Assembly (NCBI GenBank): GCA_014337915.1
Contig: QUBU01000017.1
Location: 1-63,869 of the forward strand
Source of the DNA: Gammaproteobacteria bacterium
Lineage (GTDB): Bacteria; Pseudomonadota; Gammaproteobacteria; Steroidobacterales; GCA-2729495
DNA: 63,869 nucleotides
Direction: 5' to 3'
Shown: one piece after another, positions 9,469 to 63,869 of the stretch
Numbering within the stretch: position 1 is the stretch's first letter
Layout: each line of letters opens with the position of its first letter
Position numbers and translations under genes: made by a program
The notes under the pieces: model-generated
What the model was told of the DNA's origin: nothing
The model's database searches: none
The model's input: only the letters and a program-made list of their open reading frames with translations

Positions 9469-10449
9469 ATGAACCATCCGACGCCGTTGCTGGCCCTGCG
9501 CGACCTGGTGGTGGAGTTCGACACCATGGCGGGCCGTGTACGGGCCGTGGACGGCGTGAGCCTCGACGTCTTCCCGGAGGAGAGCCTGGCTCTGGTGGGC
9601 GAGAGTGGCTGCGGCAAGACCGTCACCGCGCTGTCGATCCTGCGGCTGGTGCCGCAGCCGCCGGGCCGCATCGCCGGCGGCAGCATCCGCTTCGACGGCC
9701 GGGACCTGCTGGCCCTGCCGGAGAGCGGCATGCGCGCCGTGCGCGGGCGCGACATCGCCATGATCTTTCAGGAACCGATGACCGCGTTGAACCCGGTGTT
9801 CACCGTGGGCGCGCAGCTCGGCGACGTGATCCGCCGCCACCAGCGGCTGTCGCGGCGCGAGGCCCGGAAGGCGTCCCTCGCCCTGCTGGAACAGGTCGGG
9901 ATCCCGGAGCCCGGGCGGCGCATCGACGAGTACCCGCACCAGCTCTCCGGCGGCCAGCGCCAGCGGGTGATGATCGCCATGGCGCTGTCCTGCGGTCCGC
10001 GGCTGCTGGTGGCCGACGAGCCGACCACGGCGCTGGACGTGACCACGCAGGCGCAGGTGCTCGAGGAAATCCGCCGCCTGCAGGCCGAGTACCGCATGGC
10101 GATGATTCTCGTGACCCATGACCTCGGCATCGTCGCCGAGACCTGCACCCGCGCGGTGGTGATGTACTGCGGGCAGGTGGTGGAGGCGGCCACCACCGCC
10201 GCGCTGTTCTCGCGCCCGCATCACCCCTACACCGTGGGCCTGCTCGACTCCATCCCGCGCCTGCGCGAAACCCGGCTTGCCGAGCTGCCGGTGATTCCCG
10301 GGAGGGTACCTGATCCCCTGCAGCTGCCGGCCGGCTGCCGCTTTGCCGATCGCTGCCCGCGCGTCAGCGCTGAATGCCGGGTGGTGTCGCCGCCGCTGGT
10401 CGCGACAGCCGATGGCGGGCTCGTCGCCTGCTATCACCCGCATCCATGA
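9469..10449 (+). CDS. ABC peptide-type importer ATPase (DppD/OppD family)
   Basis: Cytoplasmic ATP-binding subunit, 326 residues. I use the ATG at 9469 ([13 protein letters not shown]); the open frame extends upstream into the permease gene but carries no family sequence there. It has Walker [14 protein letters not shown], signature LSGGQRQRV, Walker [13 protein letters not shown], and the switch His in VTHDLG. The C-terminal oligopeptide-type extension has [14 protein letters not shown], a cysteine block that binds an iron-sulfur cluster in some relatives. Its stop overlaps the ATG of the second ATPase (ATGA). Confidence 0.94.
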
Positions 10450-11444
10450 ACAGACCGCTGCTCGAAGTCCGTGAGCTGAGGAAGTACTTCCCGATCCGGG
10501 GTGGCCTGTTCCGTCGTGTGGTCGGCCAGGTGAAAGCGGTGGATGGCGTGAACCTGCAGCTCGTGGCCGGGCGCACGCTGGGGCTGGTGGGCGAGAGCGG
10601 CTGCGGGAAATCGACTCTTGGCCGGGCGATCCTGCGCCTGCAGGAGCCGACCTCGGGGCAGGTCATCCTCAGTGGCGAGGACATCACCGCGCTGCCGCGG
10701 CAGGCGCTGCTGGCGCAGCGGCGCCAGATGCAGATCATCTTCCAGGATCCCTATGCCTCGCTGAATCCGCGGCGCACCGTGGGCCAGGCCATACGTGAAC
10801 CGCTGGACGTGCACCGGATCGGCACGCTGGCCGAACGCCAGCAGCGGGTCACGGAGTTGCTCGACATCGTCGGCCTGCGCGACTCGGTCCGCGACCGCTA
10901 CCCGCACGAGTTCTCCGGTGGCCAGCGCCAGCGCGTCGGCATCGCCCGGGCGCTGGCGCTGAATCCGGCGCTGATCGTGGCCGACGAGCCGGTCTCGGCA
11001 CTCGATGTCTCGGTGCAGAGCCAAGTACTGAACCTGGTGGCTCGCCTGCAGCGCGAGCATGGCATCGCGTTCCTGTTCATCAGTCACGACCTGGCCGTGA
11101 TCCAGCATGTCAGCGACGAGGTGGCGGTCATGTACCTGGGGCGCATCGTCGAGCATGCGCCGGCTGCCAGCCTGTACCGCGAACCGCAGCATCCCTATAC
11201 CCAGGCGCTGCTTTCCGCCGTGCCGGTGCCCGATCCCGCACGCCGCCGCCAGCGCATCGTGCTCGCGGGTGATGTGCCCTCGCCGGCGAGGCCGCCGCCA
11301 GGCTGCGCCTTTCATCCGCGCTGCCCACGCGCCCGTGACCGCTGTCGCCAGGAACGGCCGGAACTGGCCAGCACGGCCGGCGCGCCCGCTGGCACACGCG
11401 TCGCCTGCCACTTTCCGGGAACCGAGGATAGGGAGACAGATTGA
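10446..11444 (+). CDS. ABC peptide-type importer ATPase (DppF/OppF family)
   Basis: Second ATPase of the importer, 332 residues. It has Walker [16 protein letters not shown], the family phrase [14 protein letters not shown], signature [10 protein letters not shown], Walker [13 protein letters not shown], the H-loop ISHDLAV, and a C-terminal Cys block ([14 protein letters not shown]). The last residues (EDRETD) and the stop codon are encoded by the outer edge of a long inverted repeat that starts at 11426, so the repeat appears to have replaced the native end of the gene. It is the last gene of the five-gene importer operon. Confidence 0.94.
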
Positions 11445-11545
11445 GATAGGGGGACAGTGAGATAGGGGGACAGTTTACTTATCTCCGCTTTGTCAAAAGC
11501 GGAGATAAGTAAACTGTCCCCCTATCTCAATCTGTCTCCCTATCC
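11426..11545. repeat. Long REP-like inverted repeat, locus 1
   Basis: Left arm 11426-11490, loop TGTCAA at 11491-11496, right arm 11497-11545. The right arm is 49 bases, and its reverse complement matches the left arm exactly except that the left arm carries an extra 16-base tandem copy of TGAGATAGGGGGACAG. The core GGGGGACAGTTTACTTA recurs, with other flanks, at 37.15-37.29 kb. The element fills the gap between the last ATPase and the metalloprotease gene, supplies the ATPase stop codon, and ends 10 bases before the next ATG. As RNA it would form a very stable hairpin, but neither arm is followed by a T-run. Confidence 0.93.
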
Positions 11546-11555
11546 TCCCGCTATC

Positions 11556-14073: not shown

Positions 14074-14694
14074 ATGACCAGTTGCCGTCTGCTCCTGCTT
14101 GCGATCGCTGCCGTCGTCCTCGGCGCCTGTGGTGGAGGGAGTCCGGCGCCGGCAACTGGCGACGGCGCGGATTCCAGGCCCACCGCGTCAGCGAGCGTGG
14201 CGGGCATCAGCGCCCGTGCCCTGCTCGAACAGGCGCTGACCGAAGCGCGAGCCTGGCAGCCGGATGCCGAGCTGGTGGCGGTGTCGACCAGTTTCGCGGC
14301 CGGGCCGCGGCACACTTTCTGGTTCTACGACGTGCAATCCCCCTCGCAGGGGCGCTGCACGCGCATCCGTGCGCTGGAGAACGGCACCATCGAGAACGTC
14401 GGCACCGGTGGAGCCTGTGTGCTCATGCAGCCCCTGTCCGGGGAGTTCATCGACAGCCCGGAAGCCTGGCGGACCGCGCGCGCGGCTGGGCTTATCCCGG
14501 GAGGTCCAATGCAGTTCGCACTTCGTTATCAGCGCGATGCTGCACTGCCTGCGCCACAGGCCTGCTGGCTGTTGTCGTCCGACGCTGACCGTGATGCGGC
14601 AACCGGCGCGACCCGCAGCTGGTGCGTGGATCCGGCCAGCGGGCAGTTCGTTGCCCGGCTGTCGGGCAAGGAACGCAGCGCCGCTGCACCTTGA
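14074..14694 (+). CDS. Putative lipoprotein of unknown function (paralogue of the 42.1-kb gene)
   Basis: 206 residues. The N-terminus MTSCRLLLLAIAAVVLGAC is a lipoprotein signal with Cys in a LGAC lipobox, followed by a Gly/Ser/Pro-rich linker. The globular part starts at ISARALLEQALTEAR and contains GPRHTFWFYDVQS, CTRIRALENG, two further Cys residues (in CVLM and CWLL) and ends WCVDPASGQFVARLSGK. I do not recognise the family. A gene on the other strand at 42146-42790 shares the same blocks throughout at roughly half identity, so this is a real, duplicated family. It lies 95 bases upstream of an exported CbiX-like gene. Confidence 0.8.
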   Translation: MTSCRLLLLAIAAVVLGACGGGSPAPATGDGADSRPTASASVAGISARALLEQALTEARAWQPDAELVAVSTSFAAGPRHTFWFYDVQSPSQGRCTRIRALENGTIENVGTGGACVLMQPLSGEFIDSPEAWRTARAAGLIPGGPMQFALRYQRDAALPAPQACWLLSSDADRDAATGATRSWCVDPASGQFVARLSGKERSAAAP

Positions 14695-37141: not shown

Positions 37142-37169
37142 ATTCTAATTGGGGGGACAGTTTACTCAA
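37142..37169 (-). promoter_or_regulatory. Possible uvrD promoter formed at the repeat edge
   Basis: On the minus strand: TTGAGT (37169-37164), 16 bases, TAGAAT (37147-37142). The -35-like element lies within the outermost repeat copy and the -10 in unique DNA. The predicted start site would be at or very near the uvrD ATG, implying a leaderless or very short leader. I found no LexA box. Tentative. Confidence 0.35.
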
Positions 37170-37290
37170 CCCAGGAGTTGAATTAAGGGGAATTATGGGG
37201 ACAGTTTACTCAACTCAAACGTTGTCCTTTCGGGTACGTCAACTTTGAAATGGAGTTGAGTAAACTGTCCCCTTAATTCCCCTTAATTCC
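37151..37290. repeat. Long REP-like inverted repeat, locus 2
   Basis: Main palindrome: left arm 37180-37216 and right arm 37253-37289, 37 bases each with one mismatch (ATTATGGGG against ATTAAGGGG), separated by a 36-base loop. A further partial copy of the core, GGGGGGACAGTTTACTCAAC, lies outside at 37151-37170. The shared core GGGGACAGTTTACT matches locus 1 at 11426-11545, but the inner stem (CAACTC against TATCTCCGCTT) differs. The right edge supplies the TAA stop of the cytochrome P460-like gene. The other edge abuts uvrD. Confidence 0.92.
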
Positions 37291-37762
37291 TCATGCTGCT
37301 GAAGACGTACTCCCTGTCCTTCTGCGGCTGATGGCAGGCGAAGCAGGCGCTTGCTGCATTGGGCCCGACCGCACGGTCGGTGGTCGAGTCGCCGCGGAAG
37401 CCTTCGAAGCCCCAGCCGCCGGTGGCGGCGTAGCGCTTGCTGTCGCGGACCATGACGCCGACGATCTTGCGCGGGCCCTCGGTGATGGCGTTGTCGGCCG
37501 ACCGGGCCTCCAGCAGGTCGAAGACGATCACCGCTCCGTCGGGGAAATGACCGCTGCGGTAACCCTGGACGGCTCCGGCATTGGCGTACAGGTGGTGGAT
37601 GCCGCCGAAGGCTGCGTGCAGCGGGTGGCCGGGTTCGATCACCATGCTTTTCACATGGCGCCAGTCACGATAGCCTTCCGGGTAGGGAACGGTGCTGTCA
37701 TCGCCCGCAACTGCCAGTTGCACGGTGAGTGCGAGCAGTGCGGCGATCATGGGCCTGTTCAT
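37283..37762 (-). CDS. Cytochrome P460-family heme protein
   Basis: 159 residues with a signal peptide (MNRPMIAALLALTVQLAVA). The mature protein has YPEGYRDWRHVKSMVIEPGH near the start, GAVIVFDLLEA, the loop RYAATGGWGFEGF and a single c-type heme motif CFACH near the C-terminus, the layout of cytochrome P460/c'-beta proteins. Those proteins oxidise hydroxylamine or bind NO in the periplasm; many homologues have no proven substrate. The stop codon is provided by the repeat element, after ASSMRN-like terminal residues, so the native C-terminus may have been altered. Confidence 0.85.
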   Translation of the reverse strand: MNRPMIAALLALTVQLAVAGDDSTVPYPEGYRDWRHVKSMVIEPGHPLHAAFGGIHHLYANAGAVQGYRSGHFPDGAVIVFDLLEARSADNAITEGPRKIVGVMVRDSKRYAATGGWGFEGFRGDSTTDRAVGPNAASACFACHQPQKDREYVFSSMRN

Positions 37763-41598: not shown

Positions 41599-41700
41599 GG
41601 GGACGGCCAGTCTACCCGTAGCGGACCGCATTGGATGGCGCCAACATACGCGCAGCCCGGTTCGGGTCGGACCAGACCAGGCCAGGAGGATCCCGCGTAA

Positions 41701-42141
41701 ATGAGTACGCTGAGAAAATACGTCGCCCCGCTTCTCGTCATCGCGGCCCTGTATGCCGGCTGGGGCCAGTTCGCCGGCGATCGGGGCATTCCGGCCGGCT
41801 CGGATACCGGCAGCGACCAGCTCGTATCCGCCTACCAGGAGCAGCGCAGCGGAGTCCAGCTAGTGGGCGAAGGCGTCGTGGTGCGGATCCTGCCCGACGA
41901 CAACGACGGTAGACGCCACCAGCGCTTCATCCTGCGGCTCGACTCCGGGCGGACACTGCTCGTCGCGCACAATATCGACCTGGCGCCGCGCATCCCGGCG
42001 CTGCAGAAGGGCGATACGGTCGCGTTCAATGGCGTCTACGAATGGAACGAGAACGGCGGGGTCATTCACTGGACGCATCACGATCCCGCCGGCCAACATC
42101 AGCCGGGCTGGCTCAGGCACGATGGCAGGACGTTTCAGTAA
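41701..42141 (+). CDS. DUF3465 domain protein with N-terminal membrane segment
   Basis: 146 residues. A hydrophobic segment (APLLVIAALYAGWGQFAG) acts as signal peptide or anchor. The DUF3465 domain follows: GEGVVVRILPDDNDGRRHQR, FILRLDSGRTLLVAHNIDLA, GDTVAFNGVYEWNENGGVIH and a C-terminal WTHHDPAGQHQPGWL. The fold resembles an OB-type domain with a terminal His cluster. Function unknown. It is divergent from recQ and ends four bases from the convergent lipoprotein gene. Confidence 0.88.
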   Translation: MSTLRKYVAPLLVIAALYAGWGQFAGDRGIPAGSDTGSDQLVSAYQEQRSGVQLVGEGVVVRILPDDNDGRRHQRFILRLDSGRTLLVAHNIDLAPRIPALQKGDTVAFNGVYEWNENGGVIHWTHHDPAGQHQPGWLRHDGRTFQ

Positions 42142-42145
42142 ACGA

Positions 42146-42790
42146 CTACTGCAGGGGCTCGATACGGCCCTTGCCTGACAGGCGCGTGACGAACGCGCCG
42201 GTCACCGGGTCCACGCACCAGCCGCGGGTCAGGCCGGAAGCCTCGTCGCCGTCGAGGTCCGACCAGAGTACCCAGCACTCGCGCGCCTGGGGCAGTGCCT
42301 CGTCACGCTGGAAGCGCAGGCCGAACTGTGCAGAGTCTCCGGGATTGAAGCCGGCGGCGCGCGCGGCGTCCCAGGCGGCCGGGCTGTCGACGAAGGCCAG
42401 GGACACCGGCTTCATCAGCATGCAGCCATCCCCGGTACCGACGTTCGATACGCCGCCGTTCGCCAGCGCGCGGATGCGCGTACAGGCGCCTTTCGCGCGC
42501 GACTGCACGTCGTAGAACCAGAAGCCGTGCCGCGGCCCCTCCGTGAGGCTCGTGGCAACCCCAATGAGTTCGGCATCCGGCGCCCAGTTCCGGGCCTCGG
42601 CCAGCGCCTGCTCGAGCATGGCACGGGCGGTGATGCCGTCCTCGCTTGCCGCCTCGGCTGGTGCCGGCGCGGCAGTGGTCGGTGTGGCCGCATCGGGTGC
42701 CGTGGTGGCCACTGGCTGCGGCGTCTTGCCTCCGCAGGCGTTGAGCGCCATAGCAGCGAACATGCACATAATCAATCGGGTGCTGGTCAT
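42146..42790 (-). CDS. Putative lipoprotein of unknown function (paralogue of the 14.1-kb gene)
   Basis: 214 residues. The N-terminus STRLIMCMFAAMALNAC is a lipoprotein signal (lipobox ALNAC), followed by a Thr/Ala/Pro-rich linker. The globular region runs ITARAMLEQALAEARNWAPD, GPRHGFWFYDVQS, CTRIRALANGGVSNVGTGDG, FVDSPAAWDAARAAGF and ends WCVDPVTGAFVTRLSGKG. These blocks match the gene at 14074-14694 in order and spacing; two mature Cys and the GPRHxFWFYDVQS phrase are strictly kept. I do not recognise the family. The two loci share no other flanking genes. Confidence 0.8.
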   Translation of the reverse strand: MTSTRLIMCMFAAMALNACGGKTPQPVATTAPDAATPTTAAPAPAEAASEDGITARAMLEQALAEARNWAPDAELIGVATSLTEGPRHGFWFYDVQSRAKGACTRIRALANGGVSNVGTGDGCMLMKPVSLAFVDSPAAWDAARAAGFNPGDSAQFGLRFQRDEALPQARECWVLWSDLDGDEASGLTRGWCVDPVTGAFVTRLSGKGRIEPLQ

Positions 42791-42845
42791 GGTGGTCTCC
42801 CGGGTGAAATGGCCGGCGCGCTCATCGCGGGCGGCGGCCAGTGCC

Positions 42846-43295
42846 TCAGTTGATCGGTCCGGCCGGATACAGCCGCAGCTTGTCCACTCCCACGTAGTAA
42901 CCGGTGGACTGCGCGTGCTTGCCCGTGATCATCAGGCTTACCCGCCTCTGGCCGGCCTGTAGCGGGAACTTGCCGAGCTGGATCGGGCCACTGGTCATCA
43001 CCTGGGGCGCCGTGCCATCGAAGGTCATCTCGCTCGGCTTGCCGTCCACCTCGAAACGGACCTGGCCGAAGTCCGGTGCGCGAGTCATGTAGATCTCGAG
43101 TGCGTACATCGACGGTGCCGGTACGTTTACCAGCAGGTCGAGCACTGCACCGGGCGCACCCCCGCTCCAGAAAAGCTGTGCGCCGCCGCCCCAGCCGCTA
43201 CCGAAACCCGCCATCTGCTGCACGCGTGCCTGGCCGCCGTTGAGCTGGTATCCGCCCGATGTCACGAACGACTCGACCTCGATTTCCAGCAGCAT
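42846..43295 (-). CDS. Beta-sandwich/carbohydrate-binding-like protein or domain, in frame after an upstream stop
   Basis: 149 residues without its own signal peptide. Sequence such as VSGGY-like start, SGWGGGAQLFWSGGAPGAVL, DLLVNVPAPSMYALEIYMTR, FEVDGKPSEMTFDG and a terminal TGYYVGVDKLRLYP looks like a jelly-roll module that binds a ligand or carbohydrate. It lies in the same frame as the upstream signal-peptide protein and is separated only by a TAA and one codon, with no ribosome-binding site visible. It may be the C-terminal domain of a split gene or be translated by re-initiation. Confidence 0.65.
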   Translation of the reverse strand: MLLEIEVESFVTSGGYQLNGGQARVQQMAGFGSGWGGGAQLFWSGGAPGAVLDLLVNVPAPSMYALEIYMTRAPDFGQVRFEVDGKPSEMTFDGTAPQVMTSGPIQLGKFPLQAGQRRVSLMITGKHAQSTGYYVGVDKLRLYPAGPIN

Positions 43296-43298
43296 CGG

Positions 43299-44081
43299 TT
43301 ACGACGGGCTGGTCGCAGCCGATGCTGCGCGCGCGTTGCCCGTGCTGGGCGGCTGCGTTGCGCGACGCGAATCGGCCTGCTGGCCCGTTGCGGCCACGGG
43401 TCCGCGCTGCATCTGCTCGATCACGGCTGCCCGGCCGGCCGCATCCTGGGGCGGCTGGCTCGCGCGCACCGCGCCCGTGCCGGTGACGCCGCTGGCCGGT
43501 GCAGTCCCGCCCACTGTCGCATCGGCCGGGCTTGGGCTGGCTGATACGGCTTCGGTCTTCGGCTTGTCCGGCGGTGGTGGCTGGGTCGGCTTGGGCAGGG
43601 CCGAGAGCGCCTGGGCCTCGACGAGAGAGAGTTTCCTGCCGGCCCAGAACTGGGGCTTGAGGAGCTGCTCGTATATCGCTCCGGCATCGACCTTCGCCTG
43701 GACTTTGACTGTCCCGCACTTGGCCGCCCCGCCCGGCGGGTCCTTGAGGAACGGGTCCTGTGTGCAGTTCGCGCTCGCGTAGCGCTCTCCCGTCGCATCG
43801 CCCGTAAACTTCAGCTTCTCGACCGCCTCACCGGTCAGGCGATTCCAGGTCGCACTGCCGATGTAGGCAAATGTGATGGCGTAATTGGTGGTCGTGGAAC
43901 TGCCGGCCCCGGTCTCCTTCTGTGTCCACGAGTGTGTACAGTCGCCGGTGACCTTGTAACTGTGCGTGTTGCCGATGACACCCGAAGCGCCCTTGAGCGT
44001 CGGGCTCGAGCAATCGAGTGCGAGTGACGGTTCCGCGAACAGCGCTGTGGCGAGCAGGATTGACAGCGTGTAGTGACGCAT
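43299..44081 (-). CDS. Secreted protein of unknown function with Pro/Ala-rich tail
   Basis: 260 residues with signal peptide (MRHYTLSILLATALFAEPSLA). The mature N-terminal domain, about residues 22-150, has four Cys likely paired in disulfides (CSSP, CTHSW, CTQDP, CGTVK) and beta-rich text like NYAITFAYIGSATWNRLTGE. A long low-complexity Pro/Ala/Gln/Ser tail follows and ends at TAA. The tail looks like a linker to another domain, and the next in-frame ORF encodes one. Not recognised. Codon use is normal for the region. Confidence 0.7.
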   Translation of the reverse strand: MRHYTLSILLATALFAEPSLALDCSSPTLKGASGVIGNTHSYKVTGDCTHSWTQKETGAGSSTTTNYAITFAYIGSATWNRLTGEAVEKLKFTGDATGERYASANCTQDPFLKDPPGGAAKCGTVKVQAKVDAGAIYEQLLKPQFWAGRKLSLVEAQALSALPKPTQPPPPDKPKTEAVSASPSPADATVGGTAPASGVTGTGAVRASQPPQDAAGRAAVIEQMQRGPVAATGQQADSRRATQPPSTGNARAASAATSPS

Positions 44082-44196
44082 GACGGATAACCCCCAGCCC
44101 GGACCGCATCCGGATCAGTTACCTCATGCCCCCGTCACGCGGGGCCGATTCTAACGCGATTCTCGCTTCGAATTGAACCGCTTCCGCGGTGGTTGC

Positions 44197-44218
44197 GGCT
44201 GGCCGTATTGGGCCAGCC
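44197..44218 (-). terminator. Hairpin after the flavodoxin-like gene (possible terminator)
   Basis: Perfect 8-base inverted repeat GGCTGGCC / GGCCAGCC with a 6-base loop, 21 bases beyond the minus-strand flavodoxin-like stop. There is no T-run, so intrinsic termination is uncertain; it may protect the transcript end. Confidence 0.35.
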
Positions 44219-44239
44219 TCGGGCAGGTGCCTGTGATCG

Positions 44240-45022
44240 CTAAGTCACCGGCTTCAGCTTGCGGCCAATGATCTGGTGACGGACAGCAGTGGCAATGAGC
44301 CTGGCAATCCAGCGGGCAGGTGGCCAGGTGCGGCAAGGGTAGTAATAGTGTGCCGAGAGCCAGCCACGACGCGACCAGTACTCGTGGTCAATCGGCGTGT
44401 TTTCGCGATTGATCTCGACCACCAGCCGCCAGATATTGAAGGCCACCACATCGCGCAGCCCGACGCGGGGGCGTTGGTCAGCGATCCTGGTCGCAACGCG
44501 GCCTGCAAGCTGCCCAATGGCTCCCTGCAGGCGCGCCTCGTACCAGGGCTCGTCGAGCATGCTGGCAGCGGCGCCGAGGCAGCCGACCACCCGGAAGCCC
44601 CAGCTGTGGACGACGTCGCGCAGGTAGGCGAAGAGCCTGTCCTGCCCGGCACCCATTGCGGTGGCCACCAGCACCGCCGGCTTTCCGATGAAGCTCGGAC
44701 GGTGTGATTCGAACACCATCAGATCGATGAAATTCTTGAGCAGTGCCGATACCGTGAAATTGTGCACCGGTGAGGCGAATACCACGACATCGGCCCGCCG
44801 CATCGCGCTGTAAACGGCACCAAGGCCTGACATCGCGCCGGTGAGGTTCTCGCCCTCCTTGATGACGTCCAGCTGTCCATCGCATGCGGGAAGGTTCACC
44901 TCATGCAGGTGGATGACTTCCCGCTCGGCTTGCGGGAAGAGGCTCCCGGCCAGCCGCTCGGCAAGGTGAAACGTGACACTCTGGCTCGCGAGCGGGCTGG
45001 CACTCAGGATCAATACACGCAT
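44240..45022 (-). CDS. Flavodoxin-like NAD(P)H-dependent FMN reductase family protein
   Basis: 260 residues, cytoplasmic. The start MRVLILSASPLASQSVTFHL gives the FMN phosphate-binding loop (SASPxxxS). It continues with HLHEVNLPACDGQLDVIKEG, MRRADVVVFASPVHNFTVSA (the typical SPVYxxxxS variant), LLKNFIDLM and SFIGKPAVLVATAMGAGQD. The C-terminal extension is longer than usual and Trp/Arg/Tyr-rich (IDHEYWSRRGW, YYYPCRTWPP). Such proteins reduce quinones, azo compounds or metals; the substrate is unknown. Upstream in-frame codons are excluded because they are unlike the fold. Confidence 0.85.
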   Translation of the reverse strand: MRVLILSASPLASQSVTFHLAERLAGSLFPQAEREVIHLHEVNLPACDGQLDVIKEGENLTGAMSGLGAVYSAMRRADVVVFASPVHNFTVSALLKNFIDLMVFESHRPSFIGKPAVLVATAMGAGQDRLFAYLRDVVHSWGFRVVGCLGAAASMLDEPWYEARLQGAIGQLAGRVATRIADQRPRVGLRDVVAFNIWRLVVEINRENTPIDHEYWSRRGWLSAHYYYPCRTWPPARWIARLIATAVRHQIIGRKLKPVT

Positions 45023-45180
45023 CGCTCCCCGCGCAGGTAGCTGATCGACCGGATTCTCGGGGGTGTCCAGGCGGTCGCATCCGGTGCGCGCCGGCATGGC
45101 GAATCAGGCTGTTCAGCTCCGATTCTGCGGCTGTGGAGGACATTGCGGCGACCTAGCCTGATCAGGATCCTGCATTTGCC

Positions 45181-45204
45181 GGATATGCTCTTGACGGCAT
45201 ATCC
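45181..45204. promoter_or_regulatory. Palindromic operator upstream of the toxin-antitoxin pair
   Basis: Perfect 8-base inverted repeat GGATATGC (45181-45188) and GCATATCC (45197-45204) with an 8-base spacer that contains TTGACG (45191-45196), a good -35. A weak -10 (CATATT, 45214-45219) is 17 bases further. This fits autorepression by the antitoxin. If this -10 is used, transcription would start just after the toxin's likely start codon. Confidence 0.7.
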
Positions 45205-45219
45205 ATCAGAGGCCATATT

Positions 45220-45582
45220 CTGACAGCCTGGATCGTAGAGTTTGCCGACGAATTCGAGCCCGAGTTCGAGCGCCTGCCGCTGGTCGTTCAGGACGAGCTG
45301 CTTGCGCAGGCGCTGGTGATTGGCCGCTTCGGCCCTCACATGGGGCGGCCGAGGGTCGATACCTTGCACGGGTCACGTCACGCGGCCATGAAGGAGCTGC
45401 GTTTCGAGGCTGGAGGTGGCGTGTGGCGGGTCGCTTTCGCCTTCGACCACCGCAGGCGGGCGGTATTGCTTGCCTGCGGCAACAAGTCTGGCACCAGCCA
45501 ACGCCGCTTCTACCGATCACTCATTGCATTGGCGGATGCACGCTTCGACGCCCATCGGGCCAGGCATCCCCGCCGGAAATAG
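45220..45582 (+). CDS. higB: HigB/RelE-type toxin (Gp49-like family) with non-canonical start
   Basis: Ribosome-dependent mRNA interferase-type toxin, about 120 residues. The domain runs WIVEFADEFEPEF, GPHMGRPRVDTLHGSRHAAM, KELRFEAGGGVWRVAFAFD and FYRSLIALADARFDAHRARH, complete from the first beta strand. The frame opens after a TAG at 45154, yet contains no ATG, GTG or TTG before codon GTG at 45316, which would delete the first third. CTG at 45220 (or ATT at 45217), with AGAGG 4-7 bases upstream, fits the expected start a few residues before Trp. It is followed 4 bases later by the antitoxin. Confidence 0.78.
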   Translation: MTAWIVEFADEFEPEFERLPLVVQDELLAQALVIGRFGPHMGRPRVDTLHGSRHAAMKELRFEAGGGVWRVAFAFDHRRRAVLLACGNKSGTSQRRFYRSLIALADARFDAHRARHPRRK

Positions 45583-45586
45583 GACC

Positions 45587-45910
45587 ATGGGACGGAAGAT
45601 CGAGGAGAAAATCGCGTCGCTGCCTCGCCGGCGACAGGACAGGGTCAAGCGGCGGGCGCGCGAGCTCGTCTCGGAGGAGCTGTCACTGCGGGAGTTGCGC
45701 CGGGCAATGAACCTGACCCAGGTGGAGATGGCGCGTCTGCTCGGGGTTGGCCAGCACACCGTGTCGCGGTATGAGCGACGCAGCGACTTGCTGTTGTCCA
45801 CATTGCGTGGGTATGTTGCTGCGATGGGCGGTCGACTGGCGCTGGTCGTGGACTTTCCTGGCCGCCGGCCGGTCAGGATACGCGGACTCGGTGACCTGGC
45901 TGACAAATAG
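45587..45910 (+). CDS. higA: HigA-type XRE family antitoxin
   Basis: 107-residue DNA-binding antitoxin. It begins MGRKIEEKIASLPRRRQDRV, followed by ELVSEELSLRELRRAMNLTQ and a helix-turn-helix VEMARLLGVGQHTVSRYERR, then SDLLLSTLRGYVAAMGGRLA, the classic HigA/XRE layout, and a short beta tail. It neutralises the upstream toxin and probably represses the operon through the palindrome at 45181-45204. Toxin first, antitoxin second is the HigBA order. Confidence 0.9.
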   Translation: MGRKIEEKIASLPRRRQDRVKRRARELVSEELSLRELRRAMNLTQVEMARLLGVGQHTVSRYERRSDLLLSTLRGYVAAMGGRLALVVDFPGRRPVRIRGLGDLADK

Positions 45911-45955
45911 CCGGCCTTCGGGCCTGGCCGTCTCGAGGGTCGATCCGGCGGAACC

Positions 45956-46004
45956 ACGGGACATCCCGTAAGGCCGCCAGCCGGGCCGTGGCTCCAGGAG
46001 CCAC
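45956..46004. other. Clustered inverted repeats in the leader of the DUF2238 gene
   Basis: Two palindromes within 50 bases: ACGGGA-CA-TCCCGT (45956-45969) and GTGGCTCC-A-GGAGCCAC (45988-46004). They lie between the HigA stop and the DUF2238 start and may be operators or a structured 5' leader. No T-run follows, so they are not an obvious terminator. Confidence 0.55.
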
Positions 46005-46060
46005 AGCCCTGGAACCTGGTCGCCAACAGTCGCGCAACGCGCAACAATGACGGACGACCT

Positions 46061-46753
46061 ATGAGCCACCGCAACTACGTACTGACGCTCCTCGCGCTGC
46101 TGGCCGCGTTGTGGGTGCCATTGGCGTTCGATCCCTTCGACCGCAGGGACTGGCTGCTGGAGAACGTGCTACTGGTGCTGGCGATCGCCCTGCTGGCGGC
46201 GACCTACCGGCGCTTCCCGCTGTCACGTATCTCGTACACGCTGATCTTCATCTTCCTGTGCCTGCATACCATTGGCGCGCACTACACCTATGCGGAAGTG
46301 CCCTACGACGCCGCCTGGCGCGCGTTGACGGGCAGCAGTTTCAACGAGTGGGTGGGCTGGGAACGCAATAACTTCGATCGACTGGTGCATTTCAGTTACG
46401 GATTGCTGCTGGCGTATCCGGTGCGCGAGGTGTTCATACGCGTGGCGGGCATGCGGGGCTTCTGGGGGTACTTTCTGCCGCTCGACCTGACCATGTCCAC
46501 TTCCATGCTCTACGAGCTCGTCGAGTGGGCGGTGGCCGAAGTGTTCGGTGGTGACCTCGGCATGGCCTATCTCGGCACGCAGGGTGATGTCTGGGATGCG
46601 CACAAGGACATGGCGCTGGCGAGCCTTGGCGCCCTCATCGCCATGAGCATCGTTGCGTTCATCAACTCACGCATCAAACGCGACTTCGCGCTCGAGTGGG
46701 CCGAAAGCCTGCGGGTCAAGCGCCTGCGCCCGCTCGGTGAGAACGAGCTGTGA
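46061..46753 (+). CDS. DUF2238 (YjdF-like) inner-membrane protein
   Basis: 230 residues with six hydrophobic segments. Family blocks include FDPFDRRDWLLENVLLVLAI, RISYTLIFIFLCLHTIGAHY, YAEVPYD, NNFDRLVHFSYGLLLAYPVR and YELVEWAVAEVFGGD...QGDVWDAHKDMALASLGA. Function not established. It is preceded by paired palindromes and is convergent with ctaA. A tiny ATG frame (MTDDL) directly upstream overlaps this ATG and might couple translation. Confidence 0.88.
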   Translation: MSHRNYVLTLLALLAALWVPLAFDPFDRRDWLLENVLLVLAIALLAATYRRFPLSRISYTLIFIFLCLHTIGAHYTYAEVPYDAAWRALTGSSFNEWVGWERNNFDRLVHFSYGLLLAYPVREVFIRVAGMRGFWGYFLPLDLTMSTSMLYELVEWAVAEVFGGDLGMAYLGTQGDVWDAHKDMALASLGALIAMSIVAFINSRIKRDFALEWAESLRVKRLRPLGENEL

Positions 46754-62992: not shown

Positions 62993-63624
62993 TCAGGTGG
63001 CGAGGACTGCGGCGGCGCGGCGCCGGGTAGCGGGGTCCGTGGTCCGGCTGGCGGCGCCGCGGCCGGCGAGGATGGCCTGCAGCGCGGCCAGGGCGGCGTC
63101 GCGGTCGTCGTTGATCACCACGTAGTCGAATTCCGGCCAGTGGGTCATGTCCGACTGCGCCTCGGCGAGCCGGCGGCGGATGACTTCGTCGCTGTCCGTG
63201 GCCCGGCCCCGCAGGCGGCGCTCCAGCTCGGGGAGCGATGGCGGCATGATGAAGATCAGCACGCTCTGCGGCATGCGCTGGCGCACCTGGCGGGCGCCCT
63301 GCCAGTCGATGTCGAGCAGCACGTGGTGGCCGGCGCTGGTGTGCGCTTCGACCTGCGCCCGGCCGGTGCCGTAGTAGTTGCCGAACACCTCCGCGTACTC
63401 GAGCAGCTCGCCGGCGGCGATCATCGCCTCGAAGCGCGCGCGGTCGACGAAGCGATAGTCGCGCCCGTCATGCTCGCCGGCGCGCGGTGCCCGGGTGGTG
63501 AAGGAGACCGAGAACCGCAGCCCCGGGTCGGCCGCCAGCAGGCCACGCGTCAGCGTGGTCTTGCCGGCGCCCGAGGGCGCGGTGATGACGAAGAGGCTGC
63601 CAGGCTGCCTGGTGATGCTGTCAT
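62993..63624 (-). pseudogene. gmk: Guanylate kinase gene with a frameshift near its start (8-bp tandem duplication)
   Basis: Guanylate kinase converts GMP to GDP and is essential. From the frame of MIAAGELLEYAEVFGNYYGT back through SVSFTTRAPRAGEHDGRDYR and the P-loop FVITAPSGAGKTTLTRGLL, the coding sequence is complete, but no ATG, GTG or TTG precedes it in that frame before a TGA at 63662-63664. An ATG at 63624 gives MTASPGSL in another frame. An 8-base tandem repeat at 63594-63609 explains the break: with one copy removed the protein reads MTASPGSLFVITAPSGAGKT and is exactly 207 residues, the length of the E. coli enzyme. Assembly error, recent mutation or programmed frameshift are all possible. 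Confidence 0.85.
63594..63609. repeat. 8-bp tandem duplication inside gmk
   Basis: AGGCTGCC occurs twice in direct succession on the plus strand (63594-63601 and 63602-63609), corresponding to codons 5-8 of gmk. The second copy adds 8 bases and changes the frame. Tandem repeats like this are prone to slippage during replication or sequencing. Confidence 0.95.
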
Positions 63625-63804
63625 GGGGATCGGCGGGTACGGATTGGCGGCCGGCGGCTGCTCACGGCCGCCAAGGAGGCCAATCTTGCCTCATTCACCT
63701 GCGCAATGCGCCGGCGGCGGGTCCCGGGATGCCCAGCACGCCCGGCGTGTCGAGCGTGGTCACGAGCAATGCGCCATCTGCATCTGAAAGTCTGGTGCCC
63801 TCAC

Positions 63805-63869
63805 TCACTCCGGCGGCGGCAGCATCAGCCACAGCACCAGGTAGATGACGACGCCAGGCGCGACCGCGC
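63805..63869 (-). CDS. C-terminal end of a possible PspC-domain membrane protein (partial)
   Basis: Only the last 20 or so residues are visible, on the minus strand: VAPGVVIYLVLWLMLPPPE, then TGA at 63805. A Gly followed by an I/V-Y-L-x-L-W-L-x-P helix end is typical of PspC-domain proteins of the phage-shock response. Too short for a firm call; other small membrane proteins end similarly. Confidence 0.4.
   Translation of the reverse strand, partial: AVAPGVVIYLVLWLMLPPPE

Follow-up and report, generated by a model that had tools for sequence, protein, structure and literature searches.

A duplicated octamer breaks the gmk reading frame near a contig end and is probably a scar of faulty assembly

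The gmk locus and its broken reading frame

The window analyzed here, a stretch of 63,869 nucleotides, is the entire contig C13 of an assembly of 35 contigs, and near one end it carries a gene for guanylate kinase, gmk, with an ATG placed 245 bp from the contig end. The features of this locus are as follows.

63661 to 62993, minus strand: kinase frame of gmk from stop to stop, 222 codons
63550 to 63624, minus strand: frame from the sole ATG before the P-loop, 24 codons and then a stop at 63550
63594 to 63609, no strand assigned: exact tandem of the octamer AGGCTGCC, two copies, which on the coding strand is GGCAGCCT twice
63614 to 63616, minus strand: ATC, one base (the third position) off ATG, from the codon list of the kinase frame
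63644 to 63674, no strand assigned: perfect inverted repeat upstream of gmk, with 10-bp arms 11 bp apart

The kinase frame scored 242 bits against TIGR03263, compared to a cut-off of 160.45, and its predicted product is a clear guanylate kinase with an intact kinase domain. On the 3′ side of gmk lie a gene for the omega subunit (PF01192) and a RelA/SpoT gene, which are the usual company of gmk. A second gmk copy, one of the rescues offered in the original prediction, was not found, with a single PF00625 match in an assembly that is 96.4% complete and has a listed contamination of 0.04.

The octamer tandem is exact and perfect in both copies, as had been claimed, and on the coding strand it stands in the order ATG ACA GCA TCA CCA, then GGCAGCCT GGCAGCCT, then CTTCGTC. 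The claims made for the two frames also held. The ATG at 63624 is out of the kinase frame and reaches its stop after 24 codons, while the 20 sense codons that precede the conserved glycine in the kinase frame, themselves preceded by a TGA at 63664, include no ATG, GTG or TTG; the extra octamer is what deprives the kinase frame of such a start ahead of the P-loop. By eye, the first 15 bases of the ATG frame agree at 11 of 15 positions with the start of gmk in the closest relative, genome G006. The earliest in-frame start of the kinase frame is an ATG at 63424, within the gene, and a gene caller restricted to ATG, GTG and TTG would begin gmk there and yield a kinase without its P-loop. The ATC at 63616 is the only near-cognate of the ATG kind in this frame before the P-loop.

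As a chance event the octamer tandem is ordinary, and its position alone is notable: the window holds one perfect octamer tandem, whereas 30 simulated sequences averaged 2.83, and 400 kb taken from elsewhere in the genome gave six. The inverted repeat at 63644 to 63674 was considered as a regulatory hairpin before gmk and set aside, as it folds only weakly better than its shuffles (z-score of -1.35, with 18 of 200 shuffles folding at least as well).

Comparison with other genomes

A gmk match was present in 55 of 60 related genomes. The start was examined in 30 of these loci, 8 from the same genus and 22 from others, the remaining 25 matched genomes being left out, and an in-frame ATG, GTG or TTG was found in all 30 with no octamer tandem at any start. 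A second set comprised 80 gmk loci on contigs of other genomes, taken from among the matches listed, of which at least 132 were confirmed; here too every locus had an in-frame start and none had the tandem. Most of the named matches are gammaproteobacterial, and a grouping of yicC, gmk, omega-subunit and SpoT genes would fit a gammaproteobacterial placement of the present genome. No gmk core is common to the two sets, which together give a standard start in 110 of 110 loci and the tandem in none, all of them from other species. In G006 the gene begins ATG ACC CCG TCG CCA GGC CAG CTC TTC GTC, which matches the window on either side of the octamer; because both flanks match, the octamer lies within genuine gmk sequence.

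The five related genomes without a gmk match are G004, G018, G025, G027 and G028, of which G004 belongs to the same genus and has a completeness of 94%. Incomplete assemblies that lack the sequence probably account for these absences.

Most of the window is collinear with the G006 region, and general low quality of C13 was rejected on this comparison: of the 51 best-scoring non-overlapping G006 frames, some of which are antisense shadow frames, 45 could be followed through a single window frame over 90% or more of their length, a measure that would miss short N-terminal breaks of the gmk type in other genes. Among the other six, two extend further at the N-terminus in G006 and a third is covered over 89% of its length, with in-frame starts found for all three; the rest are a weak match (43% of length), gmk itself, and one split over two frames at 37.3-38.0 kb, where the G006 frame runs into a neighbouring divergent gene.

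Several other features of the window were seen along the way. For the stretch at about 41700-46700, which holds several open reading frames of 170-285 aa, the G006 stretches used for comparison offer almost no counterpart; within this part of the window, 42149-42790 resembles a gene at 14074-14676, and both match one G006 frame. The pattern at 9469-11420 is one expected of tandem paralogues, with two adjoining stretches matching a single G006 frame (66% and 64% identity). At 11410-11546 and 37150-37300 there are intergenic palindromic repeats, which we take to be REP/RAYT-like; their arms are in tandem and they contain GGGGACAGTTTACT-like motifs. Contig C11 has a comparable inverted pair, TAATTAAGGG/CCCTTAATTA, close to its end.

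The ends of contigs C13 and C2

Beyond gmk, the tail of C13 contains pieces of another contig, C2.

63771 to 63869, minus strand: final 99 bp of C13, identical to C2:94932-95030, the end of a pspC-like gene
63723 to 63766, minus strand: isolated 44-bp mosaic piece, identical to C2:95483-95526, with non-matching flanking bases

Read from the end inward, the tail runs through 99 bp of C2, 4 unmatched bases and 44 bp of C2, the 44-bp piece coming from 450 bp further on in C2 than the 99-bp piece, and the sequence inward of it shares no block of 12 or more with the 3.3 kb at the end of C2. When the tail was compared on both strands with 400 kb of the genome's other stretches, the longest common block was 15 bp. 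The gmk start is thus located at an assembly discontinuity, marked by the contig end, the 99-bp overlap and the 44-bp piece of C2.

Exact overlaps of 99 bp were shared by six pairs of contig ends when 70 contig-end pieces were compared; the opposite end of the window overlapped none of the other contigs. Other terminal overlaps measured 42, 44, 53 and 71 bp or, where imperfect, 111 and 342 bp. The figure of 99 bp looks like the assembler's k in a de Bruijn graph (k = 99), a value we can only infer because some terminal overlaps differ from it. In a passage of PMC9104695, k is subtracted for each contig in working out positions on MEGAHIT assemblies.

Contig C2 carries an exact tandem duplication of its own, of 22 bp, at 95009-95052, and its second copy begins at C2:95031, where C13 departs, with the phase of the repeat uncertain by one base. 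Exact tandems of period 13-60 were absent from 400 kb of genome interior. The last base of C2, 95806, falls within the gene next after pspC; both pspC and yicC (PF03755/PF08340), the latter ending 1.8 kb before the contig end, lie in the final 2.7 kb. In genome G002, yicC, relatives of two C2 genes including the PspC gene, and gmk all fall within 4.7 kb, with the two relatives on the opposite strand; no Pfam match was obtained for the G002 relative of the last gene of C2. Because of this gene order in G002, the ends of C2 and C13 are probably chromosomal neighbours that face one unresolved interval. The genes preceding gmk differ in G006, G003 and G005, so gene order here varies within the genus. 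A small gene of G003 and G005 was considered as the true upstream neighbour and rejected, its relative here lying inside contig C14 and not at a contig end.

Explanations for the extra octamer

We consider it quite likely that the duplicated octamer is a local assembly error, the scar of a join. The ends of C2 and C13 would be adjacent in the chromosome, with an interval between them that the assembler failed to resolve, and bridging or extending into this gap would have given C13 its mosaic tail of C2 pieces. Each side would have kept a short tandem with exact copies (22 bp in C2, 8 bp in gmk), of the kind expected when two overlapping pieces are joined and their overlap is left unmerged, and the gmk of the organism itself would be expected to be ordinary and to start normally. 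Since two exact short tandems and a mosaic of fragments meet at one gap, faulty joining or end extension fits best; that the octamer itself was part of the faulty joining is a step taken from the faulty tail, the octamer lying 114 bp, about one short read length, from the nearest proven mosaic piece. This distance also speaks against a join scar, as does the position of the octamer inside genuine gmk sequence. Octamer tandems are moreover frequent by chance, terminal overlaps of lengths other than 99 bp exist, an exact period-16 tandem occurs at 11442-11474 in the window itself, within a palindromic repeat, and a second strain with a real deletion could account for the C13 mosaic.

A second explanation is a real 8-bp duplication, carried by part of the sampled population or by the sequenced cells as a deleterious or loss-of-function allele that the assembler happened to follow; the interval between pspC and gmk may have undergone a real deletion as well. 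Mutations of this type, short tandem duplications, are common, and two strains could underlie the branch of the graph between C13 and C2, yet a single gmk was found and the listed contamination is low, and we regard this explanation as unlikely. A passage in PMC11980595 calls gmk essential in Bacillus subtilis, which argues against fixation of the duplication. A fixed real duplication, with translation of the kinase begun at the near-cognate ATC 63616 or reached from the ATG frame by recoding, is highly improbable: the kinase domain is intact and 20 open codons, one of them ATC, precede the conserved glycine in its frame, but no classic slippery heptamer (X XXY YYZ) occurs in the zero frame of the ATG-frame ORF before the P-loop, the other 110 loci all start at ATG, GTG or TTG, and by eye no Shine-Dalgarno-like stretch precedes either ATG 63624 or ATC 63616, as is also the case in some relatives. 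It would be more surprising still if the duplication were fixed and the sole guanylate kinase translated from an AUC start or by unrecognised recoding; a housekeeping enzyme expected to be essential would then hang on weak non-standard initiation or recoding. Phase variation of gmk through a slippage-prone on/off switch is scarcely credible, for while the gain or loss of one 8-bp unit does shift the frame, there are just two units, gmk is a single-copy housekeeping gene, and no octamer tandem stands at any of the 110 other starts, all of other species.

Of the original prediction, the frame break and the extra octamer as its cause stood, and among the explanations it offered, assembly error gains strong local support, which could not be seen from the window alone, because the end of C13 is a mosaic of another contig. 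Frameshifting is disfavoured by the lack of a classic slippery heptamer in the ATG frame, and nothing positive was found for an unusual start codon or for a switch. The case serves as a worked example. When an essential gene appears broken near a contig end, the terminal bases of that contig should be compared with other contigs for k-mer overlaps and mosaics before a biological reading is attempted.

Compared to the guanylate kinase family (TIGR03263/PF00625), the locus encodes a full kinase domain, as the family does, but differs in having no complete frame with a standard start. A passage in PMC7111523 describes local errors in metagenome assemblies, including sequence duplicated where overlapping flanks were left unmerged; in the duplicated-flank case given there Ns lie between the copies, whereas none separate the octamers here. 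As in the errors described there, the gmk locus combines a short exact duplication at a putative join, ambiguity at a contig end and a mosaic.
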